Assembly (NCBI GenBank): GCA_902168115.1
Contig: CABHPB010000148.1
Location: 54,124-118,123, forward strand
DNA: 64,000 bases
Direction: 5' to 3'
Source of the DNA: an uncultured Methylopila sp.
GTDB lineage: Bacteria; Pseudomonadota; Alphaproteobacteria; Rhizobiales; Methylopilaceae
The position numbers and the translations under genes were made by a program. A model generated the notes under the pieces. It searched no databases and was not told the origin of the DNA. It was given only the letters and a program-made list of their open reading frames with translations. Below, piece by piece: positions 18,310 through 49,934 of the stretch (its first letter is position 1; the number at the start of each line of letters is the position of its first letter).

Positions 18310-18391
18310 CTTCTGATCGTTCTGTCGCTGCCCTCCTTGGGCGTTTCCTCCCTAGACTTGGGCCGTTCGCTTCGTGCGGACGGCCTTTTTT
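18310..18391 (+). ncRNA. mmgR: MmgR/suhB-family small RNA candidate
   Basis: The element has a short hairpin (GCCC/GGGC arms, 18330-18342), a single-stranded stretch containing TTTCCTCCCT (18344-18353), and a terminator with a 10-bp stem (18361-18385) and six T. This order and the conserved pyrimidine 10-mer are the hallmarks I recall for the alphaproteobacterial suhB/MmgR (alpha-r8) sRNA family, about 77 nt in Sinorhizobium. That family was named for its position near suhB-type inositol monophosphatase genes, and here it lies just upstream of, and opposite to, such a gene. The 5' end is estimated. GCAGCGCGGC is repeated at 18271 and 18292 just upstream. Confidence 0.7.
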
Positions 18392-18485
18392 CTTGGTTTT
18401 CTGTCCAGGCGGGCGGACATTGGCGGGCCGCCGCGCCTTTTGCAAGGATTTTTCTATCATACGATCGACGCAGCGGACTGCGGCG

Positions 18486-46773: not shown

Positions 46774-47481
46774 TCAGAAGTGGACGACGAGCGTGCGCTC
46801 GCCGAACCACCAACCCGTGGCGCCGCTGTTCGCTCGCCCGAGCACGTTGACGCGGTAATTCCCGGAGGCTGTTCCGGGCGGAATGATCGCCGACACCGAC
46901 GTCGTGATCCAGTTGTCGAAGCCCGCCGTGGAGTCAGCGTCGCAGAAGGCGTCTCCGGAACCGGACGTCGGCGCAAGCGTCGTGATGACCGTGCCGGCGG
47001 AGTCCGTCAGCACGATGTCGACGTCCACCCAGCCGCTCGTGCCGCTGGCCGCGCACTCGGCGCTGAACGTCACCACCAGCCGCTGGTTCGCCGGCTTGGT
47101 GAAGACGCCGGTCAGCATGCCCGGCACTGCGGACTGCCCCGGGCCGCCAGTGGAATTTCCCGTCTGGATCGAGAAGCCATTGGTGAAGATGCCGCCAGGA
47201 TCGAGGATGCCGGACGGTCCCTGTGGACCCTCGGGCCCCTGCGGACCGGCGGGTCCGGCGGGACCGGCCACGCCCTGCGGACCGGCGGGGCCTGCAGGAC
47301 CCTGGGGCCCTTCTGGACCCTGAGGTCCACGCTTGCCGCGCCTGCCGCGCTTGTCAGAGTCCACGTCGCCATCGTCGTCGGTCGCCTGGGACACCCCCTG
47401 CGCGTGCGAGACGTGGGAGAAACCGACGGAGCCGGCTGCAAGCGCAGCGGCGACGACGGAGAACGCTATCACCGTTTTCAT
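46774..47481 (-). CDS. Secreted collagen-like (Gly-X-Y repeat) protein
   Basis: A 235-aa protein with a signal peptide (residues 1-28, A-Q cleavage), an Asp-rich linker and about 16 uninterrupted Gly-X-Y triplets (about 46-93, many G-P-Q, G-P-A, G-P-E). A 140-residue C-terminal domain, probably beta-sandwich, has two cysteines (near 143 and 182). The repeats should form a triple helix, so the C-terminal domain is probably displayed as a trimer. Bacterial collagens serve in adhesion or surface structure. The start has GGGGAG five bases upstream. It is convergent with prpE. Confidence 0.85.
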
Positions 47482-47955: not shown

Positions 47956-48654
47956 TCAGCGGCGCCGGTAGTCGTCCTCGTCGTCGTCCGTCTCGCCGCG
48001 CTTGAGCTCCTTGAGCTTGGCGAAGACGCTCTCGACGTCGAGCTCGCCGTCGGCGTCGCGCGTGGTCTCCTCGGCCGGCAGCAGGGTCTGCTCCTCCGGC
48101 TCCTCGCGGCGGATGACGGCGTCGGGATTGGCCTTGGCGGCCTTCGCCACCTCGAAGTCGAGGTCGATCTGCGAGCAGAGGCCCAGCGTCACCGGATCCA
48201 TCGGCGTCAGGTTCTGCGCGTTCCAGTGCGTGCGGTCGCGGATCGCGGCGATCGTGGTCTTGGTGGTGCCGACGAGGCGCATCACCTGCGCGTCCTTCAG
48301 CTCCGGATGGTTCCGGACCAGCCACAGGATGGCGTTCGGGCGGTCCTGGCGACGCGAGACCGGGGTGTAGCGCGGGCCCTTGCGCGGCTTGATCGGCGGC
48401 AGCCGCACTTTCGAGACCGACAGCTGGAGATGGTAGGCCGGATTCTTCTGGCCCTTCTCGATCTCCTCGCGGGTCAGCTGCCCGTTGGTGATCGGATCGT
48501 GGCCGCGAATGCCCTGCGCCGCGTCGCCGTCGGCGACGGCTTTCACCTCGAGCTCGTGCAGCTTGCAGAAGTCTGCGATCTGCGCAAACGACAGCGAGGT
48601 GTTCTCGACGAGCCAGACCGCGGTCGCCTTCGGCATCAGCGGCGCGTTCGACAT
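47956..48654 (-). CDS. trcR: Cell-cycle transcriptional regulator TrcR (DUF1013)
   Basis: DUF1013 proteins are confined to alphaproteobacteria. The Caulobacter member TrcR is known as an RNA-polymerase-associated cell-cycle regulator. The 232-aa protein (start at 48652-48654 with GAGGAG upstream) begins M-S-N-A-P-L-M-P-K-A-T-A-V-W-L-V-E-N-T. It has two helix-turn-helix-like stretches (L-S-F-A-Q-I-A-D-F-C near 22; D-A-Q-V-M-R-L-V-G-T-T-K-T-T-I near 119) and an acidic tail. It is divergent from the DUF1192 gene, which leads into the rcdA region. Confidence 0.88.
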   Translation of the reverse strand: MSNAPLMPKATAVWLVENTSLSFAQIADFCKLHELEVKAVADGDAAQGIRGHDPITNGQLTREEIEKGQKNPAYHLQLSVSKVRLPPIKPRKGPRYTPVSRRQDRPNAILWLVRNHPELKDAQVMRLVGTTKTTIAAIRDRTHWNAQNLTPMDPVTLGLCSQIDLDFEVAKAAKANPDAVIRREEPEEQTLLPAEETTRDADGELDVESVFAKLKELKRGETDDDEDDYRRR

Positions 48655-48889: not shown

Positions 48890-49090
48890 ATGGCGTCGTA
48901 TGACGACGAGCCCGGGGCGCCGCCGGCGCGAAAGATCGCCCATGAGATCGGCCAGGATCTGTCGCGCGTCTCCGTCGAGGAGCTTCAGGAGCGCGTCCTG
49001 TTGCTGAAGTCCGAGATCGAGCGCGTCGAGCGCGAGTTGTCGTCCAAATCCGCGCAGCGGCAGGCCGCCGACATGCTCTTCAAGCGCTGA
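48890..49090 (+). CDS. DUF1192 family small coiled-coil protein
   Basis: A 66-aa protein whose start (M-A-S-Y-D-D-E-P-G) follows GAGGGGAGA. The centre I-G-Q-D-L-S-R-V-S-V-E-E-L-Q-E-R is the DUF1192 signature, leading into a short helix predicted to coil (about 30-55). Function is unknown. It lies between trcR and rcdA, and a CtrA box begins 34 bases after its stop codon. Confidence 0.85.
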   Translation: MASYDDEPGAPPARKIAHEIGQDLSRVSVEELQERVLLLKSEIERVERELSSKSAQRQAADMLFKR

Positions 49091-49124
49091 TCTCAGGCGG
49101 CTTCGCAACCTCAGATCGTCGCCG

Positions 49125-49139
49125 TTAACTCGCCGTTAA
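49125..49139. promoter_or_regulatory. CtrA binding site (TTAA-N7-TTAA) with promoter
   Basis: TTAACTCGCCGTTAA matches the CtrA consensus exactly. A TATATAA (49151-49157) follows at -10 distance if TTAACT serves as the -35. The predicted transcript starts near 49164 and meets an intrinsic terminator at 49233-49258, before rcdA. Confidence 0.75.
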
Positions 49140-49163
49140 CCTTTCCCAACTATATAAAGTCTT

Positions 49164-49258
49164 GTCCAGCTTTCTGGATTTGAGTGGTTCCTGTCCACTC
49201 AGTTTGACGCCTCCCTGTCATCGACTTCTCAAGGCCGCCGTTTCCGGCGGCCTTTTTT
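49164..49258 (+). ncRNA. Predicted CtrA-controlled small RNA between DUF1192 and rcdA
   Basis: About 95 bases downstream of the CtrA-box promoter can form CCAG/CTGG and TGAGTGG/CCACTCA hairpins. A pyrimidine-rich single-stranded segment with GCCTCCCTG (anti-Shine-Dalgarno-like) comes next. The terminator GGCCGCCG-TTTC-CGGCGGCC plus six T closes it. This is a normal layout for a trans-acting sRNA. It might instead be an attenuated leader of rcdA or the tail of the DUF1192 transcript. The 5' end is inferred. Confidence 0.55.
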
Positions 49259-49406
49259 CTGGCGTCCACGTTAACCTTTCCGGGCAAGTCCGGTGGACGA
49301 ACCGACCCGATGGTCTGGCGTTTGCTCTTCCGGCGTCGTTGATGCGATGCTGTTGCGTCGCGACGCGAAGCAACGAGCGAAATCCCCTTCCGAGAAGGCG
49401 CGCCAG

Positions 49407-49934
49407 ATGACGGACCGGACCGACCGCATCGAGCAACAGTCAGACATCGCGACGCTGGGCGTGCGCCTCGTCGGGTCCGCCGGCTTCACGGCGCTGTTTC
49501 GCGAAGGCATGGCGCTGGTCGAGGAGACCGCGGCCTATCTCGACGGCGACGGCCGCTCCGAGTCCCGGCGCCTGGGACGCCCTGAATCGATCGCCTATGC
49601 GACGGAAAGCATGCGCCTGACGACGCGGCTGATGCAGGTGGCCTCGTGGCTGCTCGTCCAGCGCGCCGTGAACGAGGGCGAGATGTCGTCCGAGCAGGCG
49701 CAGGACGAGAAGCGCAAGGTCAAGCTGACCGCGATCCGCTCCTCGCTCTCGCCGGAAGTGTTCGAGCGGCTGCCGGAGCGCCTGCGCGATCTGGTCGACC
49801 GGGCCTCGCGCCTGCAGGATCGCGTCCAGATGCTCGACGTGCAGCTAGACGAACGCGGGCGCGACGAGCCGCGCCCGGGCAATCCGCTCGAAGGCCAGAT
49901 GGAGATGCTGCGCCAGGCCTTCGGCCGGCGCTGA
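49407..49934 (+). CDS. rcdA: RcdA family protein (DUF1465), regulator of CtrA degradation
   Basis: RcdA is the adaptor that, with CpdR and PopA in Caulobacter, delivers CtrA to ClpXP. The 175-aa protein (ATG at 49407, AGAAGG upstream) is all-helical. The conserved stretch Y-A-T-E-S-M-R-L-T-T-R-L-M-Q-V-A-S-W-L-L is near residue 55, and R-S-S-L-S-P-E-V-F-E-R-L-P is near 105. In Caulobacter rcdA is itself under CtrA control; here an exact CtrA box lies 270 bases upstream, but an intrinsic terminator intervenes. Confidence 0.9.
   Translation: MTDRTDRIEQQSDIATLGVRLVGSAGFTALFREGMALVEETAAYLDGDGRSESRRLGRPESIAYATESMRLTTRLMQVASWLLVQRAVNEGEMSSEQAQDEKRKVKLTAIRSSLSPEVFERLPERLRDLVDRASRLQDRVQMLDVQLDERGRDEPRPGNPLEGQMEMLRQAFGRR

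Follow-up and report, generated by a model that had tools for sequence, protein, structure and literature searches.

Between a DUF1192 gene and rcdA, the window (the whole 64-kb stretch of DNA analysed here, from an uncultured Methylopila sp.) contains an exact CtrA box followed by a short, structured stretch that ends in a terminator. The question raised by this locus is whether the box belongs to the structured stretch, as the promoter of a small RNA, or to rcdA, the gene for the adaptor through which CtrA itself is degraded. The first-pass annotation of this DNA had proposed that CtrA controls a small RNA here and that its position beside rcdA might create a feedback loop. The features of the locus are as follows.

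48890–49090 (+): DUF1192 gene (PF06698; Pfam 1.2e-19), 5′ of the box and the RNA
49125–49139 (+): CtrA full box TTAA-N7-TTAA, sequence TTAACTCGCCGTTAA, exact match
49151–49157 (+): TATATAA, putative −10 element as read from the sequence
49163–49260 (+): small RNA of family RF02356 (BjrC1505), with the ends predicted by the RNA-only model R2
49164–49179 (+): hairpin 1, 5 of 6 pairs with changes on both sides (50 sequences)
49182–49200 (+): hairpin 2, with the C-rich loop TTCCTGT, 4 of 6 pairs with changes on both sides
49206–49219 (+): hairpin 3, with the anti-Shine-Dalgarno-like loop CCTCCC, none of 4 pairs changed on both sides
49210–49215: CCTCCC segment, within the loop of the short predicted hairpin 3
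49231–49260 (+): intrinsic terminator from the terminator scan, stem 49231–49254 followed by a T-run, 5 of 8 pairs changed on both sides
49350–49934 (+): rcdA (DUF1465, PF07323; Pfam 5.6e-57), start codon provisional, 3′ of the RNA

A BjrC1505-family RNA upstream of rcdA

Positions 49118–49260 matched the Rfam family RF02356 (BjrC1505) in sequence and structure over model positions 1–140 of 140, with 97.3 bits against a curated cut-off of 50. Given this match, the RNA is, as judged from its sequence, a member of an already known, little-studied family. The first-pass annotation had not recognised the family, but its description of a conserved CtrA box by a structured RNA beside rcdA held. BjrC1505 was reportedly first described by Madhugiri et al. 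in 2012, with expression detected in Bradyrhizobium japonicum.

The CtrA box lies within the first 46 positions of the Rfam model. The base pairs that Rfam assigns to these positions were standard in 49.3% of cells (28.6–43.7% with slid partners), and the three RNA helices of the family had standard pairs in 96.0% of cells. Given the box and the low proportion of standard pairs, these 46 positions are probably promoter DNA and not RNA. As the Rfam model holds the promoter, box counts on Rfam matches would be circular, and an RNA-only covariance model, R2, was therefore built with four hairpins from an alignment (A1) of the RNA part alone of 50 loci from the order of the window (order loci). 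R2 scored 91.3 bits on the window, whose sequence is among its training sequences, and placed the RNA at 49163–49260, within two nucleotides of the interval 49164–49258 given in the first-pass annotation.

The region 49120–49270 folds at −53.2 kcal/mol (z = −6.65), which none of 200 shuffles equalled, and the terminator scan found a stem of 10 pairs at 49231–49254 with a T-run 3′ of it, in agreement with the hairpin-rich stretch and strong terminator that had been noted before rcdA. In the alignment of 50 sequences, 97.4% of the cells of the terminator helix were paired, and hairpin 1, hairpin 2 and the terminator had 5, 4, and 5 pairs, respectively, that were changed on both sides. Overall, 96.1% of cells were paired versus 91.6% in column shuffles, with the structure derived from the same sequences. 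The anti-Shine-Dalgarno-like segment seen earlier was found in the loop of hairpin 3, where CCTCCC lies inside the nearly invariant TTTGACGCCTCCCTGT, and the loop of hairpin 2 adds a second C-rich sequence. The pairing of hairpin 3 showed no covariation in the 50 sequences; near-invariance without covariation would be expected if the segment serves as a site of pairing or binding. The RNA is unlikely to encode a small protein, since any ATG was found in just 26 of 109 RNAs and the commonest start-like codon of the open frame, TTG, sits within the invariant loop sequence (98/108).

The covariance search that had been suggested for this interval was carried out with both models. RF02356 matched 55 of 61 relatives (50 above the cut-off); among the 385 class genomes it matched 40, with 17 above the cut-off. 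R2 matched 246 of 297 order genomes, with the training genomes counted in, and 47 of the 385 class genomes.

Other features of the window were also recorded. TrcR (PF06242; transcriptional cell cycle regulator by its Pfam name) is encoded just beyond DUF1192 at 47956–48654 (−) and is also close to the RNA/rcdA locus in many relatives. An open reading frame with collagen-like repeats is found at 46774–47481 (−). In addition, an sRNA of the suhB/mmgR family (RF00519, 68.8 bits), also a CCTCCC RNA, is located at 18323–18400 (+) without a CtrA box.

The CtrA box and its distance from the RNA

The exact TTAA-N7-TTAA at 49125–49139, which had been reported to stand before TATATAA, was confirmed and is the sole occurrence in the window; none was found in 100 shuffles. 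With one mismatch allowed, the window has 6 box matches versus 0.27 expected. The box starts 38 nt 5′ of the RNA start of R2, and the start site of the RNA is inferred to be near 49163. Full CtrA motifs that activate transcription in Caulobacter are reported to have their 5′ base near −35, for instance at −39 at ctrA P2 (PMC4287350), and the distance in the window fits this placement. Thus, counted from the putative start site, the window has a full box near −35, as do CtrA-activated promoters. Moreover, in an alignment of 109 order loci, T, A, and T were majority letters (at least 50%) at the position, relative to the box, that TATATAA occupies in the window.

A box was counted if at least 7 of its 8 positions matched within 70 nt 5′ of the RNA. 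Among the training loci, 48/50 had a box; 7 of the 57 RF02356-based matches, six weak and one at a contig end, were unscored in this count. Outside A1, 59 order loci were collected, of which 19 were supplied as loci by the R2 search and 40 were retrieved separately, with diversity as the criterion of choice among the best-scoring matches listed, so that weak members of the family are under-sampled. One order locus and one class match had too little upstream sequence and were left out of box scoring. Our results showed a box in 57 of the 58 scored order loci versus 0.37% of 4348 control windows. The box lay 22–28 nt 5′ of the RNA in 56 of the 57 loci and at 4 nt in one, and the single locus below the threshold had a 6/8 box at 24 nt. 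The conservation of both box and hairpins anticipated by the first-pass annotation is therefore borne out, with the box at a nearly fixed distance and with hairpins 1 and 2 and the terminator covarying. Because the box is found at an almost fixed distance in nearly all order loci, CtrA likely switches the RNA on.

Of the 49 class matches outside the training set, all but the one in G221 were retrieved. A box was found in 36 of the 47 scored class matches, two of which (L096 and L103) belong to the same order as the window, versus 0.64% of 3448 control windows. The class matches without the GAYGCCTCMCTGT core had a box in 6/16, and three of the 10 that lacked both core and box were suhB members. 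In box-aligned loci, pairwise identity was 86% for the TTAA halves, a value inflated by picking the best box, 46% for the spacer of seven bases and 30% for the preceding 15 nt. Of the 30 loci returned for the suhB/mmgR sRNA family, which has a similar 3′ end, none had a CtrA box.

Similar results were obtained with the Bradyrhizobium-type RNA. A search with an RNA pattern returned 89 such stretches, among which a 7/8 box was found in 88/88 scorable ones and rcdA lay within 400 nt downstream in 87/89; in the variants printed, the box reads TTTA-N7-TTAA. RF02356 also matched Methylobacterium bullatum at 50.5 bits with a 7/8 box. Moreover, a match to a CtrA model was found in 61/61 relatives and was above the cut-off in 56.

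Tandem copies of the RNA were observed beside rcdA in two class genomes, G436 and G269 (loci L081/L198 and L082), where an exact CtrA box of its own precedes every copy for which sufficient upstream sequence is available. Separately, five loci (L183, L189, L190, L192, and L196) encode terminator-ended RNAs with two C-rich motifs, one GTCTCCC- or GTCGCC-like and the other AAGCCTCCCTGT. They have no CtrA box and no Rfam match at the gathering score, and are possibly a related undescribed family.

Diverged members were found in Rhizobiaceae. In S. meliloti Ak57, a record labelled pSymB contains DUF1192, followed by the exact box TTAACCGCAAATTAA and a diverged RNA; beyond the RNA come another exact box and then rcdA. 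The distance from the first box to the RNA is 22 nt, and the RNA scored 35.3 bits with R2 and had no Rfam match at an E value of 0.01. In a separate search, a relative's RNA used as query against plasmid DNA gave no match. The records of Sinorhizobium sp. K101 and Shinella sp. PSBB067 contain the same boxes, RNA and rcdA. The exact second box between RNA and rcdA, TTAACCCTTTCTTAA, is identical in the three Rhizobiaceae records (L328, L329, and L330).

The box as promoter of the RNA or of rcdA

rcdA followed the RNA in the same orientation in 58 of the 59 non-training order loci, the one miss being at a contig end, and in 51 of 57 other loci. DUF1192 preceded it, also in the same orientation, in 50 of the 59. 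The RNA and rcdA are hardly separable by presence within the order; outside it they separate. Thirty-one scored class matches, one of them from the same order (L096), possess the GAYGCCTCMCTGT core, and a box was found in 15/16 of those with adjacent rcdA and in 15/15 of those for which no adjacent rcdA was found. The latter 15 represent 14 genomes and 8 families, and two of them have less than 200 nt of downstream sequence. In G117 and G243, rcdA is found further along the same strand, at 1.5 and 3.4 kb, respectively, and it is 41–45 kb away on the other strand in G101, G227, and G324, which belong to one family. G061 has two copies of the RNA, each with an exact box, and no rcdA match. Among the 385 class genomes, rcdA was found in 37 of the 47 with an R2 match versus 103 of the 338 without one.

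Twelve of the order genomes without an R2 match were inspected, chosen from 20 listed of 51. Six of these 12 had no rcdA match. Where rcdA was present, the remains of the locus varied: G058 retains an exact box next to a degenerate RNA, and G047 and G471 have weaker RNA remnants with 7/8 boxes upstream. No RNA was visible in G006 and G025, yet each keeps a 7/8 box no more than 200 nt from the rcdA domain. G446 has neither RNA nor box. The boxes kept without a visible RNA, and the second boxes described below, blur the assignment of the box to the RNA.

These observations bear on three other explanations of the locus. The box could be the promoter of rcdA, with the hairpins as an rcdA leader or attenuator, so that CtrA drives its own degradation adaptor by read-through. 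The position of rcdA downstream of the RNA in 58/59 and 51/57 loci would suit such an arrangement, as would the prediction of CtrA control of rcdA for many alphaproteobacteria (PMC2877005) and the region 5′ of Agrobacterium rcdA, for which possible CtrA sites and several transcription starts have been reported (PMC10469942). However, the box stays with the RNA in all 15 core-bearing class matches for which no adjacent rcdA was found. The two RNA copies of G061, which has no rcdA match, and the three genomes in which rcdA is tens of kilobases away on the other strand also speak against it. Moreover, ChIP-seq in S. meliloti is reported to place CtrA at the rcdA promoter, and rcdA was reported unchanged on CtrA depletion (PMC4433202). 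We therefore regard an rcdA promoter with a leader as unlikely. An sRNA beneath the S. meliloti ChIP peak would fit binding of CtrA without an effect on rcdA; since the S. meliloti locus has two boxes, the peak may belong to either.

An arrangement in which CtrA drives the sRNA and also raises rcdA, by partial read-through or from a second box, would give negative feedback on CtrA. It draws on the near-universal synteny of RNA and rcdA in the sampled order loci, on the exact second box in S. meliloti and on the 11/58, 14/51, and 7/21 loci (32/130 in total) in which a further box, scoring 7/8 or better, separates the RNA from rcdA. In the other 98 of the 130 loci and in the window, where the best score is 5/8, there is no such box, and the terminator is strongly conserved, which makes this combined arrangement quite improbable. 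Finally, the TTAA repeats could have arisen by chance or be an AT-rich promoter part unrelated to CtrA, given that the support for CtrA in this genome is motif evidence. Their occurrence in 57/58 order loci versus 0.37% of control windows at nearly fixed spacing, their lack in the 30 suhB/mmgR loci and the higher conservation of the TTAA halves than of the spacer argue strongly against it, and we give such an origin very little credence.

Thus, the locus probably encodes a BjrC1505-family sRNA that has its own promoter, likely activated by CtrA, a predicted stop before rcdA and a trans-acting role through its C-rich loops. Family membership, the terminator motif, the near-fixed spacing, the covarying hairpins, the near-invariant CCTCCC and the presence of the box without adjacent rcdA are all read directly from the sequences. 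In the proposed mechanism, CtrA would bind the exact box and activate the promoter of the RNA, transcription would start near 49163, and the transcript would end at its own terminator before reaching rcdA. As the simplest action, the two C-rich loops would then pair in trans with ribosome-binding sites of mRNAs, in an anti-Shine-Dalgarno manner.

Targets, known systems and biological meaning

Pairing of the RNA with ctrA and gcrA was assessed with a crude duplex test that used 50 nt around the start and ignored accessibility. Neither the ctrA start regions (29 loci, mean z +0.48) nor the gcrA start regions (30 loci, mean z +0.21) paired with the RNA better than shuffles did. The ctrA set did not include the ctrA of the window, and one of its 30 loci was omitted, being from a genome without an RNA match; for five genomes that lacked an aligned RNA, the RNA of the window was used instead. 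A search of 21 genomes for the 11-mer ACAGGGAGGCG, the perfect complement of the seed, returned 30 loci, in which no recurrent start site was seen by eye. Eleven of the 30 were the other strand of the RNA itself, and one (L213) lies 4 nt before a 296-codon frame. As the ctrA/gcrA and 11-mer results name no target, the feedback loop on CtrA suggested in the first-pass annotation is a possibility and not a finding, so far unsupported by this crude test. Given that box and RNA persist without adjacent rcdA outside the order, adjacency to rcdA alone does not establish such a loop either.

The RNA was compared with other sRNAs of alphaproteobacteria. CcnA of Caulobacter crescentus is an ncRNA presumed to be activated by CtrA and has a C-rich loop (PMC8959179), a likeness in how the two may work. 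Different from the RNA of the window, CcnA is reported to be 182 nt long and to be located at the replication origin (PMC4287350), and pairing with its reported targets, ctrA and gcrA, was not found for the RNA of the window in the crude duplex test. RF02356 matched 0 of 14 control genomes, apparently including Caulobacter vibrioides, and CcnA was compared by description only. The suhB/mmgR family (RF00519) has a CCTCCCT segment, a 3′ ACTT and a terminator in common with the RNA of the window, and differs in its 5′ part and in its lack of a CtrA box in the 30 loci. Membership of the RNA in RF00519 was rejected at 23.7 bits, below the cut-off of 41.

Similar to the role proposed here, EcpR1 and GspR of S. 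meliloti are sRNAs tied to the cell cycle (PMC7143759). However, EcpR1 is a ppGpp-induced RNA and ctrA is acted on by GspR, and the accessible text of that source reports neither as CtrA-driven or rcdA-linked (PMC7143759). A transcript study of Methylosinus sporium names EcpR1 and ar45, and not a BjrC1505-type RNA, in its accessible text. None of the papers searched names RF02356, and one names BjrC1505, in a table for Herbaspirillum. In the freely readable main texts covered, no report was found of CtrA control of BjrC1505 or of a CtrA-driven RNA beside rcdA. Thus, the RNA family is known, and its link to CtrA, for which no prior report was found, appears to be the new part.

If this reading is true, a widespread sRNA of the Hyphomicrobiales would be assigned a regulator and linked to the cell cycle, and a CtrA site credited to rcdA would belong at least partly to an RNA. 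It could also explain how CtrA is bound at rcdA of S. meliloti without an effect on rcdA (PMC4433202), and the BjrC1505 family would extend to Sinorhizobium and Shinella records that are invisible to Rfam. More tentatively, BjrC1505-type RNA might be the core CtrA-dependent sRNA of the Hyphomicrobiales and several other alphaproteobacterial lineages; CtrA would thereby pair, at a single locus, an RNA that represses translation of a set of mRNAs with the adaptor that ends CtrA, so that swings of CtrA would be turned into pulses of post-transcriptional repression.
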